A stretch of 64,000 bases of DNA from assembly GCA_021737145.1 (NCBI GenBank), contig JAIPEN010000013.1, forward strand, positions 1 to 64,000. Direction: 5' to 3'. Of the stretch, positions 30,180 through 53,647 are shown piece after piece. The first letter of the stretch is position 1. Each line of letters opens with the position of its first letter. The DNA comes from Desulfarculaceae bacterium. GTDB lineage: Bacteria; Desulfobacterota; Desulfarculia; Desulfarculales; Desulfarculaceae. The notes beneath the pieces were generated by a model. The model ran no database searches, was not told the origin of the DNA, and saw nothing but the letters and a program-made list of their open reading frames with translations. A program made the translations under genes and the position numbers.

Positions 30180-30192
30180 GCCCGCCCTTTTC

Positions 30193-30233: not shown

Positions 30234-30254
30234 GCGTCCCGCCGGGGGAGTGTC

Positions 30255-34311: not shown

Positions 34312-34394
34312 GTCCCCGGGGTTTTATGCTAAAGTGGGTTTTGAGGAGGGGTGAGCGGGGGCTTGCCCAAGGCCGCGCCATGGCGGCCGATTCG

Positions 34395-34419
34395 GCGCTC
34401 GGGTAGGGAGCGCTTTTTT
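34395..34419 (+). terminator. Terminator between cyclase and gshB
   Basis: GCGCTC (34395-34400), loop GGGTAGG, GAGCGC (34408-34413), then six T (34414-34419). It ends seven bases before the gshB ATG, so the hairpin covers the place where an RBS should be; it may both end the cyclase transcript and affect gshB. Confidence 0.65.
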
Positions 34420-34425
34420 ATACAT

Positions 34426-36946: not shown

Positions 36947-36947
36947 G

Positions 36948-39749
36948 TCAGCTCCTCCCCTCCGGCTTCCGGGCCCTGGCCATCAAGCGGCCGGCCTCCT
37001 GGCTCACATAGGGGTTCTTGTGCCCGGCCAGGCGCTCCAGGGTGGTCATGAACGGCTCGGGGTCCGTGTCCTGACTCCCCAGCACCAGCAGGCTCAGGTA
37101 AAGGGTGACCCAATTCTTCTTGGCCAGCAAGTCCGCGAACAGCTCCTGCGTCTGCGCGAACCTAAGCGGCATCTTGAACAGCTTGCGCCCCAGGGCCAGG
37201 GTCTCGTTCACCGGGCCGTCCTCCAGCAGGGGGATCATGGCCTGGGAGATGTCGTGGCCCACCATGGACTCCAGGGCCTCCACCGCGTTGGAGCGCATCT
37301 TGGCGTTCACCGAGGAGAGCCCCCGGATGATCAGGCGCATCTGGTCCGACTCCTCCTGGGTGGACAGCACCCGGAGGATGGTGTTGATGCGGCTCTTGAT
37401 GCGCTCGGTCAGGTGCTGGGTGAGCAGGTCGCGCTCCGGGCCCTCGGGCAGCTTGCCCAGGGCCTTGACCTCGGCCAGGTTGAGATAGGCGAACTCCAGG
37501 TTGCTGCGGGCAAAGGCGATGATCTCCCTGTCGCTGATCTTGAGCTCGGCCATTAGGCGGTAGAGCCCGTCGCGGATGCGCCGGTTGGGCAGGGTCATGG
37601 ACTCGATGAGCACCGCGCTGTCCAGGTCCTCCAGGGCCTCCAGCCGGCTCAGGGCCATCTCGTGGCGCTCGGGGTCCTCGCTGCCCAGCAGGTGGATAAA
37701 GGCCTTGATGTCGGCCTCGCTGTTGAGGTGGAAGTCGTTGAGCACCTCCAGGGGAACCGCGGCCGGGTCGTCGGACAAACGGGCCTGCACCAGCTCGTGC
37801 AGGTGGGGGTCGTCCAGGCGGTTGAGGGCCACCAAAATCTCGCCCCGGAGCTTGTTGTCCTCCTCCGAGGCCAGCATGTCGCGCAGGCGGGGGCGGAACT
37901 CCTGGTTGCCCGAGCCGCCCGCGGCCACCACCCCGGCCCGGCGCTGCTCCCGGTCCTGGCTGGCAAGCCAGTCGCTGATCACCGTCTCGTATTTCACCGG
38001 ATCGTGGCGGTAGAGCCCCACCACGGCCTGGGCCCGCACCTGGGGATCGCTCTGCTGGTCGTAGAGCCGCTGCAAAAATCCGCCCGACACCTCCCAGGGC
38101 AGGCGGGTCGCCGCCACGGCCAGGGCCGCGTTCAGCTTGGGCCGGGCCGGGTCGGCCAGCTCGGAATAGGCGGCCACCGCCGCGGGCCCGGCGCTGGAGG
38201 GTATCAGGGGCAGCAGGTCCATGGCGGTCTGCTCGTCCTTGGTGCGGATGAGCTGGAGCAGGTGCTGGTCCAGGTCGGGCACCTGCTGGGCCCGCATCAT
38301 CTCGGCGTACCAAAGGCAGGCCCGCCCCTGGGAGTTGAGGCAGGCGTCCACCAGCTGCTCCTGGGCCCGCTTGTCCTTGAAGATCACCCCCACGTCCTGC
38401 TCTTCCAGGGACTTCAGGTCGATGACGTTGCTGCCGATGAGCCCCAGCAGGATGTCGGAGTAGGAGCGTTTTAGCCAGATGGTGCTGACCACCCAGATCA
38501 GGCCCACCGCCATGCCGACCAGCGACAGCCAGCGGGGGTGGAACAGGTGCTCGGACAGGAAGATGACCCCCGAGCCGAGGAGAATGCCGATCCGGACCAC
38601 GGTGCCGCGCAGGAAAGGCCTGAGCAGGGCCCGGAACTTGTCCGGGAACAGGCCCACCAGGATGTTGCGGGCCGGGTTGTTTATGGTCACCAATAACACC
38701 CGGGTGGAGATGCGGGCGTACATGGCCGAGTAGATGCTGAAGTTGAACAGGAAGGCTCCGAAGGCGATGACGTAGTTGATGGGGTGGAACATCAGGGCCA
38801 CGGGCAGGCCCCAGCGGTTGTAGAGCTTGCCCACGAACAAGAGGATGATCAGGCTGATGATGTTGAGCACGCCCCGGAAGTAACCGAAAAAGGTCACCAT
38901 GCCGCCCTCGGTGGCATAGGTCTCGTTCACCGCGTAGTTGAACTGGTAGTTCATGATGGGCAGCACGATGTTGGGCAGCAGGGTCAGCAGCACCAGGATC
39001 TTGAGCAGGGTCGATTCCTTGAGCATGGGAACGATCTGCTTGAACTCCTCGAGCAGACCGCTCTTCTTGCCGCCCTTCTTGGCGTCGCGCTCGGGCATGT
39101 TCAGCACCGGGTAGCGCCGCGACATCTCCCACACGCACAGGGCTCCGGCGCAGGCCACCACCCCGTAGGCCAGCATCAGGTTGTCGAAATTGATGGTCCG
39201 GGCCAGGCCGGGAGTGACAAAGGAGCCCACGATGGCCCCGATGACCCCGCCGGCGGTGATCAGGGGGAAGATGCGCTTGGACTGGCGGGTGTTGAACAGG
39301 TCGTTGGCCAGGTTCCAGAACACCAGGGCCAACAGGCCCTCGTACTGGGCCTTCAGGAGAAAGAGCACCGGGTAGATCAGATCGACGCCCATCTCCAGCA
39401 CCGGCCGCAGCGCGGCCACCGACAGCCCGCAGAACATCATCATGTAGGCCAGCATGCGGCCGCTGGGCAGCTTGCGCAGCAGGCCGGTGATGGCGGCCAT
39501 GATCACGAAGGTGGTCAGGGAGTTGGCCACATAGACGATGGGCAGATACTCCACCCCAAAGCGCTTGAGGAAAGCGGTCTCGGCGAAGTTGTTGAAGAAG
39601 ATGTTGGCCGTGCGGATGAGATAGAGCAGGGCGGCGGACCACAAGAACAGCCCAATCTCGTTGGGCTGCACCTTGAGCCAACGGCCCACCATGGCGGCTG
39701 CTTTGTTCATTACCCCACTCGCAACGGAAATGGCCTCGAAAACCGGCAT
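36948..39749 (-). CDS. Nucleotide-translocase-like (NTT/MFS) membrane protein fused to HEAT repeats
   Basis: A 933-residue protein. The N-terminal ~430 residues form about 12 membrane helices of the ATP/ADP carrier (Npt/NTT) type, related to the MFS: FLWSAALLYLIRTANIFFNNFAE-like start (split), RIFPLITAGGVIGAIVGSF and NNPARNILVGLFPDKFRA. The remaining ~480 residues are HEAT-like helical repeats (for example SELADPARPKLNAALAVAA, RDMLASEEDNKLRGEILVAL, SSVNAKMRSNAVEALES). Start may instead be the ATG at 39710. NTTs of parasites exchange ATP and ADP; the free-living HEAT-fused forms have no settled function. The CNBD protein follows one base later. Confidence 0.82.
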   Translation of the reverse strand: MPVFEAISVASGVMNKAAAMVGRWLKVQPNEIGLFLWSAALLYLIRTANIFFNNFAETAFLKRFGVEYLPIVYVANSLTTFVIMAAITGLLRKLPSGRMLAYMMMFCGLSVAALRPVLEMGVDLIYPVLFLLKAQYEGLLALVFWNLANDLFNTRQSKRIFPLITAGGVIGAIVGSFVTPGLARTINFDNLMLAYGVVACAGALCVWEMSRRYPVLNMPERDAKKGGKKSGLLEEFKQIVPMLKESTLLKILVLLTLLPNIVLPIMNYQFNYAVNETYATEGGMVTFFGYFRGVLNIISLIILLFVGKLYNRWGLPVALMFHPINYVIAFGAFLFNFSIYSAMYARISTRVLLVTINNPARNILVGLFPDKFRALLRPFLRGTVVRIGILLGSGVIFLSEHLFHPRWLSLVGMAVGLIWVVSTIWLKRSYSDILLGLIGSNVIDLKSLEEQDVGVIFKDKRAQEQLVDACLNSQGRACLWYAEMMRAQQVPDLDQHLLQLIRTKDEQTAMDLLPLIPSSAGPAAVAAYSELADPARPKLNAALAVAATRLPWEVSGGFLQRLYDQQSDPQVRAQAVVGLYRHDPVKYETVISDWLASQDREQRRAGVVAAGGSGNQEFRPRLRDMLASEEDNKLRGEILVALNRLDDPHLHELVQARLSDDPAAVPLEVLNDFHLNSEADIKAFIHLLGSEDPERHEMALSRLEALEDLDSAVLIESMTLPNRRIRDGLYRLMAELKISDREIIAFARSNLEFAYLNLAEVKALGKLPEGPERDLLTQHLTERIKSRINTILRVLSTQEESDQMRLIIRGLSSVNAKMRSNAVEALESMVGHDISQAMIPLLEDGPVNETLALGRKLFKMPLRFAQTQELFADLLAKKNWVTLYLSLLVLGSQDTDPEPFMTTLERLAGHKNPYVSQEAGRLMARARKPEGRS

Positions 39750-39798: not shown

Positions 39799-40833
39799 TC
39801 ACCCCCCCAGGCGGCACTCCTCGGGCGGCGGCGGGGACTGGCCCCCCTCGGCCGCGAAGTGGCACAGGCACACCTGCTCCCCTGCCACCTGGCGCCATTC
39901 GGGGTAGGTGGCCGAACAGAGCAGCCGCTCGGCCAGGGCGCAGCGCTGGAAAAAGGGGCAACCGGCCTGCTCGCCGGCCGGGCGCGGAGCGGGCAGATAG
40001 GTGCCGTAGGTGGGCACCCCCTCGCAGCGGCCGAACTTGGGCGTGGCGTCGATCAGGGCCTTGGTATAGGGGTGGCTGGGCGAGTTGATCACCGCCTCGG
40101 CCGGGCCCTGCTCCACCAGATGGCCGTGGTAGATCACCGCGATGCGGTCGCAGAGATAGCGGGCCGCGGCCATGGAGTGGGTGATGAAGATGATGGTGGC
40201 CCCCATCTGGTCGCGCACCCCCTGCAAAATCTCGAAGATCTGGGCCGAGTAGGAGGCGTCGAGCATGCTGGTGGGCTCGTCGGCCACCAGCAGGCTGGGC
40301 TCCAACACGATGGCCCGGGCGATGGCCACCCGCTGGCGCTGTCCCCCGCTCAGCTGATGGGGGAAGCGGTAGATGAAGTCCTCGGCCGGCGAGAGCCCGG
40401 CGGTGTCCAGCACCCCGAGCACCCGCTCCAGGCGATCGGCCGGATCGCCCACCTTGTTGGTGATCAGGGGCTCGGCCACCGCGTCGGCGATGGTCATCTG
40501 GGGGTTGAGCGACTGGTAGGGGTCCTGAAAGACCATCTGCACCTTGCGGCGGTAGTCCCTGAGGCCGCCCCCCTTGAGATGGGTGATGTCCACCCCGTCC
40601 AGGGTGATGCGCCCCTCGTCGGGCTCCTCCAGGCGCACCACCAGGCGCCCGGCCGTGGTCTTGCCGCTGCCGCTCTCGCCCACCAGGCCGAATATCTCCC
40701 CGGGCCGGAGGCTAAGGTTCACCCGGCTCAGGGCCACCACGGTGCCTCCGCCCCGGCGGTAGCGGTTGCCCCGGGTGCGGTAGAACTTGCTCACCCCTTC
40801 CAGCTTGAGGATGTCCTTGTGACTCTGGCTCAT
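39799..40833 (-). CDS. Peptide ABC transporter ATP-binding protein (OppF/DppF type)
   Basis: A 344-residue ATPase, last gene of a five-gene importer operon. Walker A is GESGSGKTTA, the signature is LSGGQRQRVAIARAI, and Walker B is LLVADEPTSMLD. The C-terminal OppF extension has a Cys-containing tail (GCPFFQRCALAERLLC) of the type that can bind an iron-sulfur cluster in this family. Separated from the OppD-type gene by 16 bases. Confidence 0.94.
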   Translation of the reverse strand: MSQSHKDILKLEGVSKFYRTRGNRYRRGGGTVVALSRVNLSLRPGEIFGLVGESGSGKTTAGRLVVRLEEPDEGRITLDGVDITHLKGGGLRDYRRKVQMVFQDPYQSLNPQMTIADAVAEPLITNKVGDPADRLERVLGVLDTAGLSPAEDFIYRFPHQLSGGQRQRVAIARAIVLEPSLLVADEPTSMLDASYSAQIFEILQGVRDQMGATIIFITHSMAAARYLCDRIAVIYHGHLVEQGPAEAVINSPSHPYTKALIDATPKFGRCEGVPTYGTYLPAPRPAGEQAGCPFFQRCALAERLLCSATYPEWRQVAGEQVCLCHFAAEGGQSPPPPEECRLGG

Positions 40834-40849: not shown

Positions 40850-41803
40850 TCAGCAGTGATCGCAGAGCACCCAGTGGCGCTCGTTGATCTCCTGCCACTT
40901 GGGCGGCTCCAGCTTGCAGGAGGCGGTGTCCTTGGGGCAGCGGTCGCAGAATCGGCAACCCGGAATGGCGCCGATGAGGTTGGGCGGCTCGCCGGGGATG
41001 GGGGTCAGCTTGCTCTTGGGCCCGGCCAGGGTGGGGAAGGAGCCCACCAGGGCCCGGGTGTAGGGGTGTTTGGAGTTGAAAAACACCTCCTGGGCCGGCC
41101 CGGCCTCCACCAGCTGCCCGGCGTACATCACCCCGATGTCGTGGCACACCTCGGCCACGATGGATATGTCGTGGCTGATGAAGATGATTCCGATGTCGAA
41201 CTGCTCCTGCAGGACCTTGGTCTCCTTGAGGATCTGGTCCTGCACGATCACGTCCAGGGCGGTGGTGGGCTCGTCGGCGATTATCAGCTTGGGGTTTAAA
41301 GCCAGGGCCATGGCGATGATGGCCCGCTGCTTCATGCCCCCGGAGTACTGATGGGGGAAGTCGTGCAGCCGCTCCAGGGGCAGGCCCACCAGGTTGAACA
41401 GCCCCTCCACCCGCTGCATGATGGCCTGCTCGTCCATGTCCGGCCGGTGGGTGCGGATGGCCTCGGTCATCTGGGCGCTCACCCGGATCACCGGGTTCAG
41501 GGCGTTCATTGCCGCCTGGAAGATCATGGCCACCTGGCTCCAACGCACCTTGCGGAGCTCTTCCTCGTCCAGGGCGCTGATCTCCACCCCGTCCAGGACG
41601 ATGCGCCCGCCGGTGATGGAGCCGTTGGGGGGCAGCAGGCCCATCAGGGCCATGCCGATGGTGGTCTTGCCGCAGCCGCTCTCGCCCACCAGGCCCAGGG
41701 AGCGTCCCTCCTCCAGGCTCAGGTTCACCCCGTCCACCGCCTTGAGCATGCCTCCGGCGGTGCGGTAGCCGATGGAAAGATTCTCTACCTTGAGAAGCGC
41801 CAT
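40850..41803 (-). CDS. Peptide ABC transporter ATP-binding protein (OppD/DppD type)
   Basis: A 317-residue ATPase with Walker A GESGCGKTTI, signature YSGGMKQRAIIAMAL, and Walker B LIIADEPTTALD. The C-terminal cysteines GCRFCDRCPKDTASC fit the OppD/DppD tail. Pairs with the OppF-type subunit as a heterodimer. One base separates it from the upstream permease gene. Confidence 0.94.
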   Translation of the reverse strand: MALLKVENLSIGYRTAGGMLKAVDGVNLSLEEGRSLGLVGESGCGKTTIGMALMGLLPPNGSITGGRIVLDGVEISALDEEELRKVRWSQVAMIFQAAMNALNPVIRVSAQMTEAIRTHRPDMDEQAIMQRVEGLFNLVGLPLERLHDFPHQYSGGMKQRAIIAMALALNPKLIIADEPTTALDVIVQDQILKETKVLQEQFDIGIIFISHDISIVAEVCHDIGVMYAGQLVEAGPAQEVFFNSKHPYTRALVGSFPTLAGPKSKLTPIPGEPPNLIGAIPGCRFCDRCPKDTASCKLEPPKWQEINERHWVLCDHC

Positions 41804-41804
41804 G

Positions 41805-42740
41805 TCAGCCCGCCTGGGTCTCGTCGCGCAGCCGGGGGTCCAGGACCTCGTCCATGGCCCGGCCCAGCATGTAGAACGACAGGGTGATGAGCGAAATGCA
41901 GATGCCCGGAGGCAGCAGCCAATAGGGCGCGGTGAACATATGCCCGGTCTTCCACACCCATTGCAGCATCATGCCCCAGCTCACGGTGCCCGGGTCGCCG
42001 AAGCCCAAAAAGGCCAGGCCCGCCTCGATGACGATGGCGCTGGTCACCCGGAAGGTCATGTACAAGAAGGCCAGGGGCAGCACGTTGGGCATGATGTGCC
42101 GGAAGATGATGCGCGTGTGGCTGGCCCCGGCCACCCGGGCCGCGTCGATGAAGGGACGCTGCTTCAGGCTCAGCGTCTGGGCCCGGATCACCCGGCTTAC
42201 CCCGGGCCATCGGAACAGGGCGATCATGAGCACGATCATCCAGATGGACAACTGGCCGAACAAAGCGGCCAGCATCAGCACCACCAGCAGGGTGGGCAGC
42301 ACCATGATCATGTCGGCCAGGCGCATCAAGAGGGTGTCGGTGGTCTTGCCCAGATAGCCCGCGGTCATGCCCACCGCGGTGCCCAGCACCACGGACATGA
42401 AGGCGGCCGACACGCCCACCATGAAGGCCACCCGGGCCCCGGCCAGAAGCTGGGACAGGATGTCGCGCCCCATGAAATCGGTGCCCAGCCAGTGGGTCAG
42501 GCTGGGGCCGGTGGATTTGACCACCAAGGGGTCCACCCCGGTCATGGGGTGGTACATGGGGTCGATCAGGGGCGGGATGTAGCTTAGCCCGGCCATGAGC
42601 CCGAACATCACCAGCAGGCTCAGGCCGATCTTGCCCAACAGGTTGCCCCGGAACACCCGCCAGTTCTCGGCCAGGCGCTGGCGCCACAGGGCGCGGCGGC
42701 CGGCCTTGAGCGATTGCAAGGTTGCTTGTTGCACGCTCAT
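41805..42740 (-). CDS. Peptide ABC transporter permease (OppC/DppC type)
   Basis: A 311-residue inner-membrane protein with an N-terminal helix, a periplasmic loop with GTDFMGRDILSQLLAGARVA, and the binding-protein-dependent transport domain with EAA loop AARVAGASHTRIIFRHIMPN. Five to six helices. Two bases separate it from the OppB-type gene. Confidence 0.93.
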   Translation of the reverse strand: MSVQQATLQSLKAGRRALWRQRLAENWRVFRGNLLGKIGLSLLVMFGLMAGLSYIPPLIDPMYHPMTGVDPLVVKSTGPSLTHWLGTDFMGRDILSQLLAGARVAFMVGVSAAFMSVVLGTAVGMTAGYLGKTTDTLLMRLADMIMVLPTLLVVLMLAALFGQLSIWMIVLMIALFRWPGVSRVIRAQTLSLKQRPFIDAARVAGASHTRIIFRHIMPNVLPLAFLYMTFRVTSAIVIEAGLAFLGFGDPGTVSWGMMLQWVWKTGHMFTAPYWLLPPGICISLITLSFYMLGRAMDEVLDPRLRDETQAG

Positions 42741-42742
42741 GG

Positions 42743-43714
42743 CTAGTACCTGATCCGGGGGTCGAGGAAGGCGTAGAGCACGTCCACCACCACGTTGGAG
42801 AACAAGACCACCGTGGCGATGAGCAGGAAAGAAGCCTGGGCCAGGGGGTAGTCGTTTTGGCTCACCGCGAACACCAGCTCCCGGCCAATGCCCGGCCAGG
42901 AGAACACCGTCTCGGTGAGCGCGCCTCCGTTGATGCTAAAGGCCAGGGAAAGCCCCACGCTGGTCACCACCGGCAGCCAGGCGTTGGGCGCGGCGTGCTT
43001 GTTGCGGATGGCCCGGTCGCTGAGTCCCTTGGCCCGGGCCAGCACGATGTAGTCCTCCTTGAGAGTCTCCAGCATGGACGAGCGCATCACCAGCAGATAG
43101 GAGCCGAAGTGGATCAGGAACAGGGTGGCCAGGGGCAGCACCATGTGATAGCCCACGTCCACCGCCTTGGCCCAGAACCCGGCGTCCGGGTCCAAAAACA
43201 CCTCTTCGGAGACCATGCCGGTGATGGGGAACCAGTCCAACTGGTAGGCGAAAACCCACACCAACAACAGGGCCAGCCAGGGCAGAAACAGGGTGTGGGT
43301 CACCAGGGCGGCGATGGTCATGCCTATATCGGCGCCCTTGCCCTTTTTCCAGGCGGCTATCTTGCCCCAGGATATGCCCACCATGGCCGAGAGCAGCACC
43401 GCGGTGGTGAACAGCAGGATGGTGTTGGGCAGCTTGTCCCAGATCACCCTGGCCACCGGTTCGCCGTAGTGGATGGAATAGCCGAACTCGCCCGAGGCGA
43501 AGTTCTTCAGGTAGATCAGGTACTGCTTCCAGATGGGCTCGTCCAGGCCCAGTTGCTCGATGAGGTGCTGGGCGTCCTCGGGGGTCATCTCCGGGTCCAC
43601 CATGCGCGAAACCGGATCTCCCGGGGCCAGGCGGAAGAGCACGAACAGCACGGTGAGGATGAAAAACAGGATCACCACCACCTGAGCCAGGCGTTTTGCT
43701 ATGTATTTCCTCAT
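42743..43714 (-). CDS. Peptide ABC transporter permease (OppB/DppB type)
   Basis: A 323-residue inner-membrane protein with the standard start (MRKYIAKRLAQVVVILFFI), LFRLAPGDPVSRM, and EAA loop ARAKGLSDRAIRNKHAAPNA. Six helices. It is 37 bases after the substrate-binding protein gene, so transport subunits B, C, D and F follow the binding protein in the usual order. Confidence 0.93.
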   Translation of the reverse strand: MRKYIAKRLAQVVVILFFILTVLFVLFRLAPGDPVSRMVDPEMTPEDAQHLIEQLGLDEPIWKQYLIYLKNFASGEFGYSIHYGEPVARVIWDKLPNTILLFTTAVLLSAMVGISWGKIAAWKKGKGADIGMTIAALVTHTLFLPWLALLLVWVFAYQLDWFPITGMVSEEVFLDPDAGFWAKAVDVGYHMVLPLATLFLIHFGSYLLVMRSSMLETLKEDYIVLARAKGLSDRAIRNKHAAPNAWLPVVTSVGLSLAFSINGGALTETVFSWPGIGRELVFAVSQNDYPLAQASFLLIATVVLFSNVVVDVLYAFLDPRIRY

Positions 43715-43751: not shown

Positions 43752-45479
43752 TTACTTGGCCTTTATCTGGCAAAGGGACCAGATGTTGCCAACTCCGCCC
43801 AGCATGGGCACCCAGCCGGTGAAGCGGTCGATGCGAACGCCCTCGATCACCTTGGGGTTGTACAGGGGCACATAGGGCACCGCCGCCATGAGCATGGCCT
43901 GCATCTGGAAGATCATCTCCTGGCGCAGCTTGGGGTCCATGGCGTTGTTGGATTCGTTGGACAGGGCGTCGTAGGCCGCGCTCTCGTAGCCGCTCATGTT
44001 GTAGCCGCGCGGCTTGTTGTAGCGGGAGTGGAAAAAGGCCCGCAGATAGCCCGGGTCCAGCGACAGCTTGCCGTAGCCCAGGATAAAGGCGTCGAAGTCG
44101 TGCTGACCCTTGACCTTCTGGATCAGGGCCCCGAAGGCCATGGGGCGGCTGACGGCCGGCATGCCCGCGGCCCGGAGCCACTCCTGGATCATCTGGCCGC
44201 TCATGGCCCGGTGGGGGTCATAGTCGGCCGGCGGGGTGAGGATGGTGAACTCCTTCATGGGCGAGCCGTCGGGCAGGCGGATGCCCTCGCCCCTGACCAC
44301 CTCGCCGTTGGCGTTCACCGGCGGGGTCTCCCAGGTGTAGCCCGCCTCCCGGAGGATGTTGTAGGCCAGCTTCATGCGCTCGTCCATGGACTTGCCATAG
44401 CCGTACTTGGGCACGTCGGGGTTGTAGTAGAAGCTGTTTCCCGGCGGAATCATGGAGTGCAGCACCTCGCCGTATCCCTGCAGGATGCGCTTGATGATGA
44501 ATTCCTTGCTCACCAGGGTGGCCACCGCGCGCCGCAGGGCCACGTCGTCGAAGGGCTCCTTGCGCAGGTTGAAGCCCAGGTAGTACAGGCCGCTCTTGTT
44601 GCTCACGAACAGCTTGATGTCCTTGTCGTCCTTGAGCTGCTCCAGATAGCCGGCCTGGATGCTGTTCCAGTAGAAGTCGATGGCGCCCTTGCGCAGGGCC
44701 AGGATGGCCGCGTCGGCGGTGCCGTAGACCTTGAAGATGATGCCCTTGATATGGGGCCCCAGTTTATGGCCGGAGATGGTCTGGCCGCGGCCGAAGAAGT
44801 GGGGGTTGGCCTTCATGAAAACGAACACGCCCTTTTGCCACTTGCTCACCACAAAGGGCCCGGTGCCGATGGGGTTGGTGAGCTTGTGCCTGAGGATGAC
44901 GGTCAGGGGCTTTTCGGCCCCCTGGGCGCTGGCCACGATCTTTTCCCACTGCTTTTTCTGCACGATGGGCGTGGTCAGGGTGCGCGAGAGGAAGATGGCC
45001 TTGGGCCGCTTGAGCTCGAAGCGCACCGTGTGCTTGTCCACGGCCACCACCCGCTCGATGAAGCTCCATTTGGAGCGGTGGCGGGGCATCCTGAATTTGT
45101 TGATGAGCTGGCCGGTGAAGATCACGTCGGCGGCGGTGAAGTCGCTGCCGTCGGACCACTTGGCCTTCTTGAGCTTGACGGTGTAGGTCATCTTGCCCGC
45201 GTCATAGACCGGCTTGCCCGCCGCCAGCCAGGGCACCAGCTCGTTGCTCTTGGGTTCGCGAATGAACAGCGGCTCGTTGATCAGGCTCAGCACCCGCTTG
45301 GACCAGGCGTCGGTGGCCAGCCACAGGTTCAGGCTCTTGGGCTCCTCCAACACCCCGATCTTGAGCATGCCGTTGGCGGCAGCCGCGGGGGTGGCGCAGA
45401 GGCCGCCCAATAAAACCGTCACCATGGCCGCCAGGGCCAAGCCACGGACCATCATGTTCCGTTTAAAACACTTCGCCAC
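43752..45479 (-). CDS. Peptide-type solute-binding protein (SBP_bac_5 family)
   Basis: A 575-residue periplasmic binding protein. GTG 45479 follows AGAGGAG at five bases. The signal peptide ends near TPAAAANG. Typical segments are LKKAKWSDGSDFTAADVIFT, PIGTGPFVVSKW and DDVALRRAVATLVSKEFI. It sets the specificity of the transporter; peptides, nickel or opines are possible. First gene of its operon, with an operator-like dyad between TATAAT and RBS, but it may also be read from the ATP-grasp gene 130 bases upstream. Confidence 0.93.
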   Translation of the reverse strand: MAKCFKRNMMVRGLALAAMVTVLLGGLCATPAAAANGMLKIGVLEEPKSLNLWLATDAWSKRVLSLINEPLFIREPKSNELVPWLAAGKPVYDAGKMTYTVKLKKAKWSDGSDFTAADVIFTGQLINKFRMPRHRSKWSFIERVVAVDKHTVRFELKRPKAIFLSRTLTTPIVQKKQWEKIVASAQGAEKPLTVILRHKLTNPIGTGPFVVSKWQKGVFVFMKANPHFFGRGQTISGHKLGPHIKGIIFKVYGTADAAILALRKGAIDFYWNSIQAGYLEQLKDDKDIKLFVSNKSGLYYLGFNLRKEPFDDVALRRAVATLVSKEFIIKRILQGYGEVLHSMIPPGNSFYYNPDVPKYGYGKSMDERMKLAYNILREAGYTWETPPVNANGEVVRGEGIRLPDGSPMKEFTILTPPADYDPHRAMSGQMIQEWLRAAGMPAVSRPMAFGALIQKVKGQHDFDAFILGYGKLSLDPGYLRAFFHSRYNKPRGYNMSGYESAAYDALSNESNNAMDPKLRQEMIFQMQAMLMAAVPYVPLYNPKVIEGVRIDRFTGWVPMLGGVGNIWSLCQIKAK

Positions 45480-45484
45480 TGTAG

Positions 45485-45540
45485 CTCCTCTCTTTCAAAT
45501 GCGGAGATCTCCGGTGCGGAGAAACGCATTTCCAATTATA
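45485..45540 (-). promoter_or_regulatory. Leader of transporter operon: -10 element, dyad and RBS
   Basis: On the minus strand TATAAT (45540-45535) is followed by AAATGCG (45531-45525) and its inverted mate CGCATTT (45503-45497). Between them are TCTCCG, CGGAGA and TCTCCG; the last two form the perfect palindrome CGGAGATCTCCG (45502-45513). The RBS GAGAGGAG (45492-45485) comes four bases later. No good -35 is found, so an activator may be needed. It may be an operator or, if transcription begins further upstream, an RNA hairpin. Confidence 0.5.
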
Positions 45541-45609
45541 AGGAATCGCGGGACAACCTGCATAATTATTCTATGGTAACCATTACTAAAAGTAAATCTG
45601 CCGTAAATT

Positions 45610-46482
45610 TCAGGGGTTTCCCAGGGAAAAATCCACGATGAGCCCGGCCGCGTCCAGGCCGGATGCCTGCTCCAGGCCCTTGAAACCAGGGGTGAAGTTC
45701 ACTTCCATCACCATAAGCTCCCCAGAGGCGGCTCTCACCAGGTCCACCCCGGCCACCTCCAGGCCCACCGCCCCGGCGGCGGCCTCGGCCAGGCGGGCGG
45801 TCTCGCCCCGGGGCAAATGGTTGGCCGGCGCGCCGCCCAAATGCAGGTTGGCCCGGAACTCGCCCGGCGCGGGGCTTAGCTCCATGCCGGCCACGGCCCG
45901 GCCCCCCAGCACCAGCACGCGATAGTCCTTCCGGCCCTCTGGCGGCAGATAGCGCTGCAAAAGTACGCCGCGCCGTTGCCTTAGCCACAGCTCCCGGGCC
46001 AGGGCGGCCTCCTCCGGGCCCGCGATCAGGGCCACGCCCGAGCCCTGGCGGCCCTGGGGCAGCTTGGCCACCAGGGGATAGCCGCCCAGGCGCTCCACCG
46101 CCTGGTCCCAGCCCCGGGGCCGGTTGACCAGGCAGGTGTCCGGGGTGGGCAGCCCGGCCCCGGCCAGGGCCTGCAGGCAAAGATACTGGTGGCTGGCCAG
46201 GCCGATGGGCCCGGGCCGGTTGACCAGGCGCGCGCCCAAAAGCTCCAGATGGCTGAGCAGGGCCATGGTGTAGGGGCTGATGGTGGAGCCCACCCGGGGC
46301 AGCACCACCGGCGGGGGCGGGTCCAGGCCCAGGAGCCCGGCCTTTGCGCCGGTCAGGGAGCACCAGGCCCGGAAGGGGTGCATGAGCACCAGCTCCACCC
46401 CGCGTTCCCGCGCCGCCTGGGCCAGCCTGCGGTTGGGGTGATAGTCCACCCCGTGCACCGAGACCACCCCCAGGCGCCTCAC
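45610..46482 (-). CDS. RimK-like ATP-grasp ligase
   Basis: A 290-residue ATP-grasp enzyme. The GTG start overlaps the stop of the radical SAM-like/GNAT gene (GTGA). Domain features: VVLPRVGSTISPYT, then VAKLPQGRQGSGVALI (glycine-rich ATP loop), VLLQRYLPPEGRKDYRVLVLG, FRANLHLGG and LMVMEVNFTPGFKG (metal ligands Glu and Asn). RimK-type ligases add amino acids, often glutamate, to peptides or small molecules. The target is unknown; the partner gene and the peptide transporter downstream suggest a peptide-like substrate. Confidence 0.87.
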   Translation of the reverse strand: MRRLGVVSVHGVDYHPNRRLAQAARERGVELVLMHPFRAWCSLTGAKAGLLGLDPPPPVVLPRVGSTISPYTMALLSHLELLGARLVNRPGPIGLASHQYLCLQALAGAGLPTPDTCLVNRPRGWDQAVERLGGYPLVAKLPQGRQGSGVALIAGPEEAALARELWLRQRRGVLLQRYLPPEGRKDYRVLVLGGRAVAGMELSPAPGEFRANLHLGGAPANHLPRGETARLAEAAAGAVGLEVAGVDLVRAASGELMVMEVNFTPGFKGLEQASGLDAAGLIVDFSLGNP

Positions 46483-48398
46483 GACCAGGGCTCCTCGCCC
46501 AGATCGGGGTCCTGGTCCCGGGGCATCCAGATCTGCATGTCCTTTTGCAGGCGGCGGGAGAAGTAGGTTTTCACCAGGCGCTGGCCGTTGCGGGCCAGGA
46601 TGCGCTGGCCGGGAATATTGTCCGCCCCGGTGATGATGACCATCTTGCGGCCCTCGGAATGCTCGATGACCCCCTGAATGAGCCGGTTGCCCACGTTCAG
46701 GCCCCGGTATTCGGGCCGGACCGAGATGTAGCCGCGCTCGGTGTAGCCGGTGAGGTCCAGGCCGCTCTGCTCCTTGATGCGCTCGATGTACTCGTCGCGG
46801 GGCCGCTTGAGGGTGTCGGTGCCCACGATCACCCCCTCCTCATGGGCATAGCCCACCAAATAGGCGTGGGCCAGGTTGTGGCGCAGCCACTTGGGCCGCA
46901 CCTTGCCCGCGGCCAGCACCAGCATGGCGATCTCTTCCAGGCGCTCGGGGCCGATCTCTCCGGGGCGGGCGAAGACGTATTCGAGGTTTTGGCCCAGGAG
47001 GTGGACCCCTCCCCCGTCGCGCACCCGCCAGCGCATGAGCCTCTGGCTGCCGTGGCGGGCCACATAGAGCAGCAGGTGAGCCGGATCGTCCATGAAGCGC
47101 CACAAGGGGCGGCCCGGCAGGGGGGCCACCTGGCGGAAGGCCTGGGCCTGGGGCTCGCCGATTGCCTGGCGGGGCCGGGGGGACCAGGGCCACAGCCAGG
47201 GGCGGCTCCAGGAGTGCACCACCTGGGGGTTGGAGCCGGTGAAGTCCAGCAGGCCCGCGGCCATGGGGTCCGAGGCCTCGGTGGGCAGCACCAGATGATT
47301 CCACAGCCCGGCCCGGTTGGACAGGGCCAGCGCCTTCTCGGCCTGGCCCAGGCGCTCCTCGGGGCTGGCGGGGGGCAGGGTCCCGCTCTGCCACTGCACC
47401 AGGCGCACCCCGCCGGCATGCAGGGCGCTAAGCACCTCGGGCGTGGGCGGGTCGTCCAGGGAAGCGGCCAGGCCCAGGGGGACCTGGTTGCCCTCCAGGG
47501 CAGGGGCCAGATCGGCCAGATAGGCGGCGGGCATCACCTGGCGCAGGGACAAGAAGGCCGCAGCCCCCTTGGACGCCTGCATGGCCATGCCCTGGGCCAG
47601 GCGGCCGGCGGGCATCAGTTGGGGCAAGGCGATGCCCGGGTCGCGCCAGTCGTGGTGCTCCAGCTCCATGCCCAGCACCGGGCGCAGGGTCATCACCGGC
47701 GCGGGCAGCAGATAATCGCCCCGGGGCGGCTCCAGATCGCGCAGCATGCAGCCCTCGCCCGGCTCGGCCCCGCTCAGGGAGGCGGCCAGGGAACGCAGGG
47801 GCACGGGGTCCAGCAGGGGCAGGGCGTGGTCCCAGCACTCGCTCCGGCCCTGGGGCGCGCCGGCCAGCTCCAGGCAGTCGCCCACCAGGGCCACCACCCA
47901 CTCGGGGCGTTGGGCCTTGAGCCAGGCGCCCATGACCAGGGCCCCCAGCCACTGGCCCGAGCTCTCCAGGGTGATGAGCGCCAGGCCGGGACCCTCGGCG
48001 GGCAGGCGGGCCTCCAGGCCGGCGGCCGCGAACTCGGCCAGGGGGGTGTCTTGGGTCCGGGCCCAGGCCAGGGAGCTCTCCAGGTCCAGGCTGGCCGGAT
48101 GCTCCAGGCCCCGCCAGGTGTAGCGGCCCGGGGATATCTCGGCTGAGAAAACCTCCAGGCGCTCGCGCAGCAGGCGGCGGGCCTGCACATAGGCGTCGGG
48201 GTCGTAAAAGCCCTCCCCGCGCAGCACCTGGGCCGCCTCCTCGCCCGGTCCGGGCAAAAGGCGCTCCCGCCAGAAGTCCAGGTTGGCGTCCCACACCTCC
48301 AAGGGCTCCAGGCCGGCCAGCATGGCCCGCACCCTGAGGGGTGCGCAGGGCGCGGCGGCCGGTGAAGCCAGGGGGGGATTGACCACGAATATGCGCAA
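46479..48398 (-). CDS. Degenerate B12-binding/radical SAM-like protein fused to a GNAT acetyltransferase
   Basis: TTG 48398 is preferred, with GAGGGA five bases upstream and RIFVVNPPLAS right at the start; ATG 48461 is possible but has no RBS. 639 residues. The N-terminal third has the layout of the cobalamin-binding part of B12-radical SAM enzymes (VVNPPL, VWDANLDFW, LALITLESSGQWLGALV). The middle resembles a radical SAM barrel, but no CxxxCxxC is present: the matching place reads LGMELEHHDW. The last ~170 residues are a GNAT domain (YISVRPEYRGLNVGNRLIQG). Co-translated with the ATP-grasp gene. Confidence 0.7.
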   Translation of the reverse strand: MRIFVVNPPLASPAAAPCAPLRVRAMLAGLEPLEVWDANLDFWRERLLPGPGEEAAQVLRGEGFYDPDAYVQARRLLRERLEVFSAEISPGRYTWRGLEHPASLDLESSLAWARTQDTPLAEFAAAGLEARLPAEGPGLALITLESSGQWLGALVMGAWLKAQRPEWVVALVGDCLELAGAPQGRSECWDHALPLLDPVPLRSLAASLSGAEPGEGCMLRDLEPPRGDYLLPAPVMTLRPVLGMELEHHDWRDPGIALPQLMPAGRLAQGMAMQASKGAAAFLSLRQVMPAAYLADLAPALEGNQVPLGLAASLDDPPTPEVLSALHAGGVRLVQWQSGTLPPASPEERLGQAEKALALSNRAGLWNHLVLPTEASDPMAAGLLDFTGSNPQVVHSWSRPWLWPWSPRPRQAIGEPQAQAFRQVAPLPGRPLWRFMDDPAHLLLYVARHGSQRLMRWRVRDGGGVHLLGQNLEYVFARPGEIGPERLEEIAMLVLAAGKVRPKWLRHNLAHAYLVGYAHEEGVIVGTDTLKRPRDEYIERIKEQSGLDLTGYTERGYISVRPEYRGLNVGNRLIQGVIEHSEGRKMVIITGADNIPGQRILARNGQRLVKTYFSRRLQKDMQIWMPRDQDPDLGEEPWS

Positions 48399-48838: not shown

Positions 48839-50377
48839 TCACACCTTGAACTCGGCGTCTCCCCAGTATTGATCGCGCAGTTTGCGCTTGAGCACCTTGC
48901 CCACCGGGCTGCGGGGCAGCTCGGACACGAAGTCCACCGAGCGGGGCTTGAGATAGTCGGCCAGCTTGTCGGCGCAAAAGGTGGCGATCTCCTGGTAGGA
49001 CGACTCCTCCCCCGGCTTGAGCACCACCACCGCCTTGAGGGTCTCGCCCCACTTGTCGTCCGGCACCCCGACCACCGCCACCTCGGCGATCTTGGGATGC
49101 CCCAGGAGCACCTCCTCCACCTCGCTGGGGTAGATGTTCTCCCCGCCGCTGATGACCATGTCCGTGCGGCGGTCCACGATGTAGAGGAAGCCCTCGTCGT
49201 CCAGGCGGCCCATGTCCCCCAGGGTGAACCAGCCGTCTTTGAAGGCGGCGGCGGTCTTGTCCGGGTCGCGGTAGTAGCCGGAGAAGATGCTGGGGCATTG
49301 CATATATATCTCGCCCACCTGGCCCTGGGGAACCGGCTTGCCCCGGTCGTCCAGGAGCTTCACGTAGGCGTCCCACACCGGACGGCCCACCGAGCGTATC
49401 TTGCGGTTCATGTCCCTGGCCCCGATGCTGGTCACGATCAGGGTCTCGGTGGCCGCGTAGAACTCGTGGAGCACCGCCCCGAAGCGCTTGAGGGCCGCCT
49501 CCTTGACCGGGGTGGGCAGGGGAGAGCCCCCGCTCATGAGCACCTTGAGGCTGGAGGTGTCGTGCTCCTGGTGATCGGGCAGGCCCAGGATGGCGCTGAA
49601 CATGGTGGGCACCAGGAAGCTGTAGCTGACCCGGTGCCGGGCGACCAGGCGCAGGTACTCCCTGGGGTCGAAGCTGCGCATGATCACCGTGGTGCCGCCC
49701 ATGTACAGGGCCAGGGAGCTGAAGTTGCGCGGCGCGGTGTGCCAGAAGGGACCGGGGTTCAGGGTGACCTCGCCGGTTCCCAGGCCGTAGTCCAGCACCT
49801 TGTACAGATAGCCGGCCACGATGGCCCGGTTGGAGGTGAGCGCCCCCTTGGAGCGGCCGGTGGTGCCCCCGGTGTAGCCGATGAACAGGACGTCCTCGGG
49901 GCTCAGGTTCACCTCGGGCTCTTGCTCGCCGCCCGAGGCCAGCATCTGTTCATAGCTGGCCATGCCCACCGGCGGCGGCTCCTGCCCCAGCACCAGGATG
50001 CGCCCGGCCACCGCCCGCTTGATCTCCGGCTCCAGGCTGTCGAACAACAGCAGGTACTCCGGGCCCAGGATCATGGCCGAGGCCCGGGAATGGGCGAGGC
50101 GGTAGCCCACCTCCGGGGACTTCAGGCGGTAGTTGACCGGCACCATCCACACCCCCAGCTTGGCGCAGGCGTGGTAGATCTCCAGGTACTCCGGCCCGTT
50201 CAGGGCCAGCACGGCCACCTTGTCGCCCTTGCTCAGGCCCAGGGCCCCCAGGGCCCAGCAGAGGCGGTTGACCCGCCGGTTGAACTGGCCGTAGGTCCAG
50301 GAGCGGTCCTCGAAAATGATCGCGGTTTTGTCCGGGTGGCGCTCGGCGCTGTGTCCCAGGGCCTTGCCCATCAGCAT
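48839..50377 (-). CDS. AMP-dependent acyl-CoA synthetase/ligase
   Basis: A 512-residue class I adenylate-forming enzyme. The P-loop is YTGGTTGRSKGAL; FYAATET, FTLGDMGRLDDEGFLYIVDR and GGENIYPSEVEEVL are the A5, A7 and A8 regions, and PRSPVGKVLKRKLR holds the catalytic Lys. Substrate may be a fatty, aromatic or short carboxylic acid. It follows the TRAP permease gene by 25 bases, which suggests that it activates the imported acid. Repeat B copy 2 lies downstream. Confidence 0.92.
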   Translation of the reverse strand: MLMGKALGHSAERHPDKTAIIFEDRSWTYGQFNRRVNRLCWALGALGLSKGDKVAVLALNGPEYLEIYHACAKLGVWMVPVNYRLKSPEVGYRLAHSRASAMILGPEYLLLFDSLEPEIKRAVAGRILVLGQEPPPVGMASYEQMLASGGEQEPEVNLSPEDVLFIGYTGGTTGRSKGALTSNRAIVAGYLYKVLDYGLGTGEVTLNPGPFWHTAPRNFSSLALYMGGTTVIMRSFDPREYLRLVARHRVSYSFLVPTMFSAILGLPDHQEHDTSSLKVLMSGGSPLPTPVKEAALKRFGAVLHEFYAATETLIVTSIGARDMNRKIRSVGRPVWDAYVKLLDDRGKPVPQGQVGEIYMQCPSIFSGYYRDPDKTAAAFKDGWFTLGDMGRLDDEGFLYIVDRRTDMVISGGENIYPSEVEEVLLGHPKIAEVAVVGVPDDKWGETLKAVVVLKPGEESSYQEIATFCADKLADYLKPRSVDFVSELPRSPVGKVLKRKLRDQYWGDAEFKV

Positions 50378-50402
50378 GTCTGCAACTCCCTAATGGCTGC
50401 TC

Positions 50403-52340
50403 TCAGGCGCGGCGGGAGGCCGCCGCCCCGGCGGGTGAAGGCGCGGCGGCCTCGTCCGGCCCGGCGGCGCGGCCCCGGCGTTTGCGCAGGTTGTTTATCA
50501 CCAGTCCGGCCAATAGCCCCCCGGCCGGGACCAGCAGCCAGGCCAGCCCCAGGGCGGCGGCCACCAATAGCCCCAGGCCCGCGGCCAGGGACAGGCCCCG
50601 CTCCAGCAGGTTCAGGCGGTGGGCCAGATAGCCCACGAAGCTCATCTGCAAGGCACCCAGGCCCAGCACCACCAGGGTCACCGTGGCCATGAGCGGCCCG
50701 GCCTGGGTGCCCGGGGTCAGCAGCAGGGAACCGTTGTAGGCGAATACGTAGGGCACCAAAAATCCGGCCACCGCCGCGCCGATGGACAACAGGGCGGTCT
50801 TGATGTAGCGCGCCTCGGCGATGCGGCTGGCCACGATGGCCGCCATGCCCACCGGCGGGGTGAGCCCGGAAAAGGCCCCGAAGTAAAAGGCGAACATGTG
50901 GGCCTGGATGGGCTCCAGACCCAGGCGGATCAGGGCGGGGATGGCCACCATGGCCCCCACCAGATAGGCGGCCACGGTGGGCACTTCCAGGCCCAGGATG
51001 ATCACGCAGCCCATGGCCATGACCAGGGCCACGAACAGGCTGCCCCCGGCCCAGGTCTCCACCGAGTAGCCCACCAGCATCCCCAGGCCGGTCTTGGTGA
51101 CCAGGGCGATGATGGGCCCCAGGGTGGCGCAGGCCACGGCCACCTTGGCCCCGGTGACCGCGCCCTTGACGCAGCCGGCCAGCACCCGCTTGAGCGGCGG
51201 GCGGGTGCGGCGCCGGAGCAGGCTCAGGGCCAAAAGGCTGACGATGCCCCAGAAGGCGGCGAACATGGCCGGGAAGCCCAGGAAGAACAGCACCAGGATG
51301 GCCGCCACCGGCACCATGAACAGGGGCGCGGTGGCCAACAGCACCCCCCGGTCAGGCTTTTCGGTGAGCGGGGCCACCTTGAGCTTCAGGGCCGAGAAGT
51401 GCACGAAAAAGGCCACGGACACGAAGTAGAGCGCCGCCGGGATGGCCGCGGCGCTGATGATATCCGCGTAGGGCACCCCCAGCAGGTCGGCCATGACAAA
51501 GGCCCCGGCCCCCATGATCGGGGGCATGATCTGGGCCCCGCCCGAGGCCGCCGCCTCCACGCTGGCCGCCACCTCCGGCTTGTAGCCCACCCGCTTCATC
51601 AGGGGGATGGTGAAGGCGCCGGTCACCGCGATGTTGGGGGTGGCCTGGCCGGTGGTGGTGCCCATCAGGGCCGAGGAGATCACCGCGGTCATGGCCGGGC
51701 CGGAGCGGGAGTAGCGCCCCACCACCTTGCCCAGCTCCAAGAAGAAGTCGTTGGCCCCCAGGGCCCCCAGCATGCCGCCGAAGAAGATGAACAGGAAGAT
51801 GACGTTGGCGCTGATGATCAGGATGGTGCCCCACAGGTCGTAGGAGCCGAAGGTCAGGTCCACGGTGGTGATCAGCTCGCCCACCGACAGTTCGGGCCCG
51901 CCCAGCAGATGACCGAAAAAGCCGTAGGCCAGCAGCAGGCAGGCCATGGAGGGCAGAATCCAGCCGAAGCTCTGCCAGCAGGCCGCAAAGACGATGAACA
52001 GCACCAAAAAGCCCACCACCACGTCCAGGATGGTGGGGAAGCCCACGTTGAACAGCAGGCTCTCCAGGTTTATCCAGAGGTAGGCCACCACGCTCAGGCT
52101 GGCCGCTATCATCAGCCACCAGAACCAGCGCCCCTTGCCCGCCTTGGCCGCGCCCAGGAAGATGAGCACCAGGGCGAAGACCAGGTGGATCATGCGGTGC
52201 TCGATGGTGCCCACCACCGAGAAGTAGACGTTTATCAGGTGGTACAGGGCCATGGCCACCGCGACCAAAGCCAGGGCAGCGTCCCACCAGGAGGGGAACA
52301 GGCGCCGGCTTTCCGGGGTTGGCTGCGGGTCGGTGGACAT
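50403..52340 (-). CDS. TRAP transporter fused 4TM-12TM permease (DctQM type)
   Basis: A 645-residue permease with about 16-18 helices, joining the small (DctQ) and large (DctM) subunits as usual for TAXI systems. Landmarks are FGGMLGALGANDFFLELGKV, LMGTTTGQATPNIAVTGAFT, GGAQIMPPIMGAGAFVMADL and FYFGAFSGLTPPVGMAA. Secondary symporter for carboxylates or amino acids, driven by sodium or protons. The C-terminus ends in a short charged tail. Its binding protein is encoded 80 bases upstream. Confidence 0.93.
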   Translation of the reverse strand: MSTDPQPTPESRRLFPSWWDAALALVAVAMALYHLINVYFSVVGTIEHRMIHLVFALVLIFLGAAKAGKGRWFWWLMIAASLSVVAYLWINLESLLFNVGFPTILDVVVGFLVLFIVFAACWQSFGWILPSMACLLLAYGFFGHLLGGPELSVGELITTVDLTFGSYDLWGTILIISANVIFLFIFFGGMLGALGANDFFLELGKVVGRYSRSGPAMTAVISSALMGTTTGQATPNIAVTGAFTIPLMKRVGYKPEVAASVEAAASGGAQIMPPIMGAGAFVMADLLGVPYADIISAAAIPAALYFVSVAFFVHFSALKLKVAPLTEKPDRGVLLATAPLFMVPVAAILVLFFLGFPAMFAAFWGIVSLLALSLLRRRTRPPLKRVLAGCVKGAVTGAKVAVACATLGPIIALVTKTGLGMLVGYSVETWAGGSLFVALVMAMGCVIILGLEVPTVAAYLVGAMVAIPALIRLGLEPIQAHMFAFYFGAFSGLTPPVGMAAIVASRIAEARYIKTALLSIGAAVAGFLVPYVFAYNGSLLLTPGTQAGPLMATVTLVVLGLGALQMSFVGYLAHRLNLLERGLSLAAGLGLLVAAALGLAWLLVPAGGLLAGLVINNLRKRRGRAAGPDEAAAPSPAGAAASRRA

Positions 52341-52420
52341 GGGCCTATCCGTGGGGGTTCAAGGTTGCGCGCCCCCCGGCCGGGTGGGCCGGAGGGCGCG
52401 TGAAACAGGGCTGAGGACGG

Positions 52421-53488
52421 TTATTCCACCGGGTAGACCGTCTGGAAATATTTGAGGCCGTAGGGGATATTGTTCTCCTCGAAGAACTTACGGGCCCCGG
52501 GGTGCCAATCCTTTTTGGGCACGGGATAGGCCCCCAGCTTGTCCGGGGTCCAGGCCTTGCCCGAGCTGTGATAGGTCTTCATCTGGTCGCGGTGGCCAAA
52601 AGTGGTCTTAAGGATGTTGTAGACCACCTTCTCCGGGATCTGGGGATACACCGCCCAGGCCAGGACGATGTTGAAGCCCATCACCTTTTGCTGGGGCGCC
52701 CCCTTGCCCAACACGCCCTTGGGCATGGTGGCGGTGGCGGCGTACACCGGGCCGTAGAGCTCGCCGGACTTTTTACGCATGGCCGGGGTGGCGGTGACGA
52801 AGAGCACCTTGCGCTTGCTCATGAGTTCCTTGAGCTTGGGCACGGTGGTGTAGATGCCCTTGCCCCGCTCGGGGCAAAAGGCCACCGCCGCGTCGGTCTT
52901 GCCCAGGATCATGTCGTTGTAGCCGGCGTAGCCGGTGTACTGCCACTTGACCGAATCCAGGACATCCTTGCCCGCCCCGCCCAGGAGCTTGTAGGCCATG
53001 TCGTACTTGGTGGTGCCTTTGGGCCAGGTGGCCACCCGCTTGCCCTTCAGGTCGGCCAGGGTCTTGATCTTGGGGTCCAGGGTGATGAAGCTCACCGCCA
53101 GGGACTGCTGATAGCACATGACCATGATGTCCTTGACCTTGCCGGCCATCCGCTTGAAGGGGGGCCTGCCCGCCTGGGCCGCCTCGAACATCTCGGCCGA
53201 GCAGGTGAAGAAGGTGCGTGTGCGCTTCTTGGGGTCCATGCCCACCACCTTGATGTTCTCCGGGGTGCCGGTGGACTCCAGCACCGAGCCGCGCACCTGG
53301 TCCGAGTACTTGTTGAGCAAGTCGCACATGCCGAAGCCCAGTATGTAACTGGAGCCTCCGAAGGTGGTGGTGCGGGCCTCGACCCGGTAGAGCTTGCCAG
53401 CCTGGGCCGGTCCCGGCAGGGCCAGCAAACCAGCCGCCAGGGCCATCACCCCGGCCGCCGCCAACATGAGCAGGGCTTTTTTGCGCAT
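52421..53488 (-). CDS. TAXI-family TRAP solute-binding protein
   Basis: ATG 53488 has GGGAG seven bases upstream, better than TTG 53494; 355 residues. Signal peptide ends near PAQAGK. The TAXI fold is recognised by TTTFGGSSYILGFGMCDLLN at the start, DPKIKTLADLKGKRVATWPKGTT and YAGYNDMILGKTDAAVAF. It binds the substrate for the downstream permease. A strong promoter lies about 165 bases upstream (53648-53676). Confidence 0.93.
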   Translation of the reverse strand: MRKKALLMLAAAGVMALAAGLLALPGPAQAGKLYRVEARTTTFGGSSYILGFGMCDLLNKYSDQVRGSVLESTGTPENIKVVGMDPKKRTRTFFTCSAEMFEAAQAGRPPFKRMAGKVKDIMVMCYQQSLAVSFITLDPKIKTLADLKGKRVATWPKGTTKYDMAYKLLGGAGKDVLDSVKWQYTGYAGYNDMILGKTDAAVAFCPERGKGIYTTVPKLKELMSKRKVLFVTATPAMRKKSGELYGPVYAATATMPKGVLGKGAPQQKVMGFNIVLAWAVYPQIPEKVVYNILKTTFGHRDQMKTYHSSGKAWTPDKLGAYPVPKKDWHPGARKFFEENNIPYGLKYFQTVYPVE

Positions 53489-53647
53489 ATTCAAACTCCC
53501 TCTCCATAAGCAAAGTGCACGGCAAAAAACGCGCGGCCCAGCCCGGGAAGACGGCTGCCCGCCAGCCGGCTCCCTGGGCCGGACCGCTGCCTAGGGTCAT
53601 GTTAAGGCTTGGGGCTTGCCACACAAATATAATTTATCGGCAGTATT

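Follow-up and report, generated by a model that had tools for sequence, protein, structure and literature searches.

The window, which is the whole 64,000-nucleotide stretch of DNA analysed here, carries on its minus strand a gene for a two-domain protein (46479-48398), a RimK-type ATP-grasp ligase gene and the genes of an Opp/Dpp importer. The fusion gene encodes a protein of 639 aa and starts at a TTG codon with GAGGGA just upstream; an alternative ATG lies further upstream, at 48461, without an obvious ribosome site. The rimK gene (45610-46482, 290 aa; PF08443, E 5e-29; TIGR00768) follows with the overlap of four bases that a sequence-only reading of the locus had described, positions 46479-46482 being common to both open reading frames. 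That reading had also placed an Opp operon 130 bp on along the same strand, and it is indeed there. Beyond a gap at 45480-45609, the importer is complete, with A, B, C, D and F in order from 45479 to 39799: oppA, for a family-5 solute-binding protein (43752-45479; PF00496, E 1e-67), the permease genes oppB (42743-43714; PF00528, PF19300) and oppC (41805-42740; PF00528), and the ATPase genes oppD (40850-41803) and oppF (39799-40833), both matching PF00005 and PF08352.

The cluster extends further. On the same strand lie the genes of a core partner, a TLC ATP/ADP-carrier-like protein with HEAT repeats (36948-39749; PF03219, E 9e-10; PF13646), and of a cyclic-nucleotide-binding protein (36419-36946; PF00027, E 1e-22), the two being fused in locus L070 and others. 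The plus strand encodes an N-formylglutamate amidohydrolase-like (FGase-like) protein (35701-36468; PF05013, E 2e-41), a GshB-like ATP-grasp ligase (34351-35433; PF02955, E 4e-54; NF003573) and a HAMP-adenylate/guanylate cyclase (32764-34311; PF00211, E 5e-21; PF00672). The unit is larger than first proposed; the GshB-like ligase, the TLC/HEAT and cyclic-nucleotide-binding proteins, the cyclase and the hydrolase had been missed. PADLOC matched the cyclase alone, to Pycsar cyclase models; because any class III cyclase would be expected to match these, a link to defence was rejected.

The C-terminal domain of the fusion protein, encoded together with the stop codon at 46479-46994 (minus strand), is by profile and fold a GNAT acyltransferase, with acyl-CoA transfer as its predicted activity. 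It matches PF00583 above the Pfam cut-off (E 8e-5), and Foldseek gave GNAT matches with probability 1.00, the search with the full-length model returning GNATs only. Its loop reads RGLNVG, where most homologues in the family alignment A3 have RGxGxG.

The N-terminal domain (about 468 aa) is encoded at 46995-48398 on the minus strand. Taken alone, the N-terminal 490 aa gave no Pfam or NCBIfam match, so the origin of the domain was taken from profiles. Against intact fused homologues, hhalign aligned 442 columns with a probability of 99.9% (E 5.6e-35), and against a second group of B12-binding radical SAM proteins the profile-profile probability was 99.7%. A profile of decayed sequences only found L070, an intact fused locus, with E 9e-42. 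The one intact fused homologue tested matches PF04055 (E 8.5e-19), with PF02310 below its cut-off, and its best model is the RiPP C-methyltransferase TIGR03975, at 120.7 bits and below the cut-off of 281.85. These profiles trace the domain, of about 470 aa, to a B12-binding radical SAM ancestor, an origin that we regard as secure. The AlphaFold2 model with the decayed domain reached a pLDDT of 86.3 and a pTM of 0.88. A PDB fold search with the domain alone gave at best weak matches, to MqnE, N-acetylneuraminate lyase and biotin synthase (TM 0.2-0.3); we counted these against our main reading and did not use weak barrels as proof. A GTP-binding protein from the PDB profile search was doubtful (E 0.0095) and was discarded.

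The C-x3/4-C-x2-C motif is absent from the window protein and from all 13 decayed homologues. Together with the profiles, this agrees with the earlier description of a cysteine-less radical SAM-type domain fused to GNAT. The spacing proposed for the lost motif, CxxxCxxC, was not that of the fused family, which has C-x4-C-x2-C: eight fused homologues keep CYWGKC[A/S/T]FC. Homologues with cysteines, held by the sequence-only reading to speak against its proposal, therefore exist outside the decayed clade; they show the former nature of the decayed domain, and decay here stands. Elsewhere in the domain, each of the twelve decayed sequences in alignment A4, which left out decayed loci L069 and L101, has RWGxETGH replaced and lacks the GF of (I/V)xGFPxE (the GFPGET strand) through deletion. 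By its motifs, the window protein is not an active radical SAM enzyme, both the [4Fe-4S] and the AdoMet sites having been lost. An AU test rejects a GNAT tree in which a single branch separates the decayed forms from all others (p 0.0003); one decay with three later domain losses also fits, so that decay may have occurred once or several times.

What became of the domain after its decay can be read in two ways. W336, W366, N390, H395, S396 and Q149 (window domain numbering, from alignment A4) are common to the decayed domain and the intact enzymes, as would be expected of a retained ligand site. The domain is under purifying selection, with dN/dS of about 0.28-0.47. It could nevertheless be a relic nearing loss, the GNAT alone mattering and the N-terminal half being tolerated or aiding folding or solubility. 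Such a fate would suit the GNAT-only versions that accompany the same Opp genes in related genomes of the same family and order (L030-L034), the deletion of whole segments of the domain in L026-L028 (alignment A4), and a dN/dS raised above that of the rest in two of three decayed pairs. Between the window and G008, the domain has 75% identity, versus 83-90% for GNAT and OppA. In several genomes the GNAT stands without a fused radical SAM domain, which is thus dispensable there; the fused arrangement first described for the system holds here but not throughout. Against a relic count the open reading frame, the well-folded prediction, the particular aromatic and polar residues that are kept, the recognisable presence of the domain in at least four families (f1, f51, f23 and f100), and its occurrence in every one of the 8 genomes of the genus. 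We consider loss in progress unlikely, and favour a domain retained as a substrate scaffold, for which the kept residues, the spread over families, the confident fold, the purifying selection and the homology to intact fusions all count. Against it count the dispensability of the domain elsewhere, its evolution at a faster rate than the rest and its deletions, and also that no residue points to a substrate.

Whether the importer belongs with the enzymes depends on the gap and on the neighbourhoods in other genomes. A weak promoter-like site lies within the 130 bp between rimK and oppA (45568-45596, minus strand; the scan gave 4 sites in the region, with 1.8 expected), so that co-transcription of the two genes is not assured. 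The transporter might then be an adjacent unit that has a promoter and a substrate of its own, with one pathway comprising just the ligases and the acyltransferase. Opp does not adjoin in G011, G280, G239 and G190, and the similarity of OppA, whose nearest solved relatives are AppA and DppA, singles out no ligand. The absence of a homologous Opp adjoining the fusion or GNAT in the G011, f84 and G190 loci was likewise counted against our main reading. Yet homologous OppA proteins (50-69% identity) lie beside GNAT or RimK/GshB in f1, f2, f51, f35 and f64, and in several arrangements, bearing out the Opp linkage in several families and making an independent transporter improbable.

The window RimK passes TIGR00768 (159 bits, cut-off 143.4) and keeps the metal-site residues D and E/N of RimK structures. 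It falls within this family of glutamate ligases but below all specific equivalogs (S6, LysX, MptN and CofF). The GshB-like ligase, which also keeps its metal-site residues, exceeds one glutathione synthase model (NF003573, 276.5 bits versus 272) and not another (TIGR01380, 258.7 versus 299). A search for gshA found PF04262 in none of 13 cluster genomes and PF04107 in three, with neither in the window genome (94.7% complete); since no gshA was found, canonical glutathione synthesis was rejected there. RimK modifies ribosomal protein S6, and RimI modifies S18; a comparable protein target for RimK and the GNAT here is very improbable. The nearest solved relatives of the window RimK are S6-type glutamate ligases, but it scores 137 bits against the S6-ligase equivalog cut-off of 331, the RimI model gives 11.7 against 86.4 bits, and the two are accompanied by a peptide importer, a ligase of GshB type and a hydrolase resembling FGase.

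Across Desulfobacterota, the GNAT, alone or with an intact or decayed radical SAM domain, recurs with RimK, the GshB-like ligase and the TLC/HEAT/cyclic-nucleotide-binding protein, and also with adenylate cyclase, the FGase-like protein and Opp. In a sample of 297 genomes, the TLC/HEAT protein was present in 12 of 12 GNAT genomes (hypergeometric P 8e-18), as was a close GshB (P 2e-18). The cyclase lies near the cluster in several genomes, and the FGase-like protein also recurs near it. Conserved linkage to RimK, for which the sequence-only reading had proposed a neighbourhood survey, was seen outside the window at 11 of the 13 decayed loci and at 6 of the 8 intact fused ones; two of the four exceptions are at contig ends. 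Every fused form is located within this cluster or close to it. Family f51 includes GNAT loci with none of the cluster partners close by, and this was counted against our main reading. In some genomes the cluster adds an ATP-PPase or a third ATP-grasp protein; the ATP-PPase-like candidate U377 is absent from the window genome and was rejected as a partner there. A single-protein search of genome contigs matched one contig, JAHLLJ010000160.1.

N-acetylglutaminylglutamine amide (NAGGN), a small acetylated dipeptide, is made by a GNAT, an ATP-grasp ligase and an asparagine-synthetase-like enzyme. The present cluster likewise combines a GNAT with an ATP-grasp ligase, but there the two form one protein (TIGR03103), whereas here a dead radical SAM domain is the fusion partner of the GNAT, which is accompanied by a GshB-like ligase and Opp. 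The window RimK scores 19.7 against 569 bits for TIGR03103, which is not among the matches of the fusion protein. The RiPP B12-binding radical SAM C-methyltransferases of the TIGR03975 group supply the best model for the intact homologue and the origin of the decayed domain; they differ in that the intact homologue scores below the cut-off, that the window protein is without cluster and AdoMet motifs, and that no precursor peptide gene was identified. Elp3, a radical SAM-KAT tRNA acetyltransferase, also has radical SAM and then GNAT in one chain, and in it the interface of the two forms the substrate pocket (PMC8153317). The window protein differs by its N-terminal B12-type domain, its own GNAT subfamily, its lack of cysteines and its peptide-ligase cluster. 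No Elp3 model was among the NCBIfam matches of the window protein or of L070, and membership was rejected; by analogy, Elp3 is an architectural precedent for the putative scaffold role. For predicted operons of linked ATP-grasp ligases and GNATs, successive peptide ligation with acyl capping has been proposed (PMC4431377 and work cited there); the passages on these operons concern other ATP-grasp clades and mention neither radical SAM nor TLC/HEAT nor Opp partners. The earlier statement that no system of such composition had been described agrees with our literature search, which found none (a 2009 amidoligase survey lay outside it). The gene cluster is conserved and apparently undescribed.

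Homology, motif loss, conserved linkage and co-occurrence lead us to give about an even chance (0.5) to a two-domain acyltransferase acting in a pathway of several enzymes and a dedicated importer that handles a small peptide-like metabolite, its dead radical SAM domain serving as substrate scaffold. The GNAT domain would transfer an acyl, probably acetyl, group to a substrate that the N-terminal domain, formerly a B12-dependent radical SAM enzyme and probably once a C-methylase, most likely binds and positions. RimK, and the GshB-like ligase elsewhere in the cluster, would extend this substrate with amino acids, trimming or recycling of the compound would fall to the FGase-like hydrolase, and Opp would re-import it or a precursor. 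The adenylate cyclase and the cyclic-nucleotide-binding/TLC-HEAT proteins may couple the pathway to cyclic-nucleotide signalling. We infer every catalytic step and the scaffold role, and likewise the substrate and the direction in which the system is used. For a single pathway count the presence of RimK beside the fused loci, the co-occurrence of TLC/HEAT and close GshB in all 12 genomes, and the metal sites of the ligases. More tentatively, a multi-ligase system of Desulfobacterota, comprising RimK, the GshB-like ligase, GNAT with or without fused B12-binding radical SAM domain, the FGase-like protein, the cyclic-nucleotide-linked TLC/HEAT protein and Opp, might make and retrieve an acylated peptide-like compound, the radical SAM domain of one lineage having become a dead docking domain over several families.

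If this is right, the intact fused, decayed fused and GNAT-alone forms would be a naturally staged series in which a radical SAM domain loses its chemistry and yet is kept, making a non-catalytic role of the fold testable by domain swaps. The cluster, which combines a dedicated acyltransferase and its own importer with cyclic-nucleotide parts and two to three ATP-grasp ligases, has an apparently undescribed product, and its GshB-like ligase would work in genomes where the search for gamma-glutamylcysteine ligase found none.

The N-terminal domain of the fusion protein is radical SAM by descent and not by function, and the protein itself belongs to GNAT. Its C-terminal 165 aa form the GNAT domain (PF00583, and fold-search matches), and residues 1-490 found no match among curated models. 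All eight genomes of the genus contain homologues, as do two more genera of the family (g3 and g4), and none of these proteins has a cysteine motif. When 297 phylum genomes were screened with a profile built from decayed sequences alone, fused proteins in other families came up. The 770 aa protein of L070 (genome G198) carries the same GNAT as the window's, matches PF04055 (E 8.5e-19; PF02310 below cut-off) and has the cysteine motif GCYWGKCAFC; CYWGKC[A/S/T]FC is retained in eight fused homologues. The alignment of decayed with intact profiles spans 442 columns (probability 99.9%, E 5.6e-35), and the decayed profile matched a second B12-radical SAM group at 99.7%. An AlphaFold2 model of the decayed domain gave a confident fold (pLDDT 86.3, pTM 0.88) whose PDB relatives are weak only.

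Alignment of decayed with intact fused domains located the losses. The window protein has a GMELEHHDW-like sequence in place of GCYWGKC.FC, a region deleted in other decayed rows, and every decayed row has lost RWG.ETGHPRILKLMNKGT and the (I/V).GFP.E strand. Seventeen columns are invariant across both forms, including Q149, W336, W366, N390, H395 and S396 (window domain numbering). Two loci of family f51 (L082 and L083) show an intermediate-looking sequence, EDDRLTPAYM, at the site of intact NDDCLTP.YL. The decayed domain evolves faster than its neighbours, yet is constrained: dN/dS was 0.47, 0.41 and 0.28 for three decayed pairs and 0.22 for an intact pair, rough values given a third-position GC content of about 92%.

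The radical SAM partner occurs in four states: fused intact (8 loci), fused decayed (the window and 13 others), a separate gene beside the GNAT, and none. The separate genes adjoining an unfused GNAT (L094:2153-3838, L095:10473-12122 and L085:3-1487) encode proteins of about 550 aa with a CxYRC.FC-type motif and 59-63% mutual identity; a further one lies beside the TLC/HEAT gene in L119, and L072 carries a small one. Separate and fused proteins share just 26-31% identity, and the separate ones may be different enzymes. The 47-row GNAT tree showed clustering of the decayed, the intact and the GNAT-only forms. Placing the decayed forms on one side of a branch was rejected (p 0.0003); because the tree has no known root, one decay followed by losses of the domain agrees equally well.

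The fusion gene runs on the minus strand from a TTG at 48398, preceded by GAGGGA, to a stop at 46479, and its homologues in L022 and L035 start at the same position. RimK (45610-46482, minus) overlaps it by 4 bases, and 130 bp separate RimK from oppA, followed by oppB, C, D and F. GC at codon positions backs the frames of all these genes. Upstream on the same strand (48839-53494) lie an AMP-forming acyl-CoA ligase, a fused TRAP transporter (DctM) and an NMT1/TAXI-type binding protein, whose tie to the fusion gene is limited to genera g1 and g3.

Comparison loci were annotated by homology. Recurring partners are RimK, a GshB-like ligase, OppABCDF, a TLC ATP/ADP-carrier-like/HEAT/cNMP protein, adenylate cyclase and an FGase-like hydrolase. 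Of the 297 genomes, 12 carry the GNAT, 17 the long TLC/HEAT protein and 16 a close GshB (at least 55% identity); both partners are present in every one of the 12 GNAT genomes (P 8e-18 and 2e-18, values that ignore genome relatedness). Five of the 17 have a full-length TLC/HEAT relative without the GNAT. GshB and TLC/HEAT do not always share a contig with the GNAT. In f51, some twelve GNAT-only loci show no nearby partner; several of these are on short contigs. The TLC ATP/ADP-carrier-like/HEAT protein and a cNMP-binding protein are encoded by two neighbouring genes in the window (36419-39749), but elsewhere form a single protein of some 1,100 aa. Also in the window, at 28464-31832, a glucosyl-3-phosphoglycerate-synthase-like gene, a 98-aa unknown and an asparagine-synthetase-like gene point toward the cyclase and GshB genes, a set kept in G008 and G004 (L108, L109).

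Some genomes have an extra partner, U377 (about 377 aa; L072:15185-16318, L071:10447-11586, L074:10196-11332), which has SGGIDS and CxxC motifs, gave no match in a Pfam search and looks like an ATP-PPase. It is absent from the window genome and was not seen in G198 and G345, the tested genomes with an intact fused radical SAM domain. In L072 a small radical SAM-like protein (16325-17581, 418 aa, CYWGRCIYC) adjoins U377 and a cyclase. A third ATP-grasp protein, U486, lies directly 3' of oppF in families f51 and f35 (L118:3-1463, L093:18217-19656).

Model scores ruled out Elp3, NAGGN synthetase and S6-type RimI/RimK identities. The searchable open literature, outside which most subscription papers lie, yielded no description of the combination seen here. 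The window system is a variant of both the known ATP-grasp/GNAT pathways and the radical SAM-GNAT architecture, new as such.

RimK and GshB are probably active ligases, since both retain D and E/N at the metal site, as in their solved relatives. The gshA family was not found in the window genome, nor in most cluster genomes, so GshB here is probably not finishing glutathione. A GNAT next to ATP-grasp ligases is generally read as adding an acyl cap to a ligated peptide (PMC4431377). The intact fused form scored best, below cut-off, against a RiPP C-methyltransferase model, which suggests that a peptide-like substrate is methylated ahead of acylation. In Elp3, the interface common to the radical SAM and GNAT domains holds the substrate pocket (PMC8153317). 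These points lead us to infer that the window protein still serves in binding but no longer carries out radical chemistry; the individual catalytic steps, the substrate and product transport are likewise inferred.
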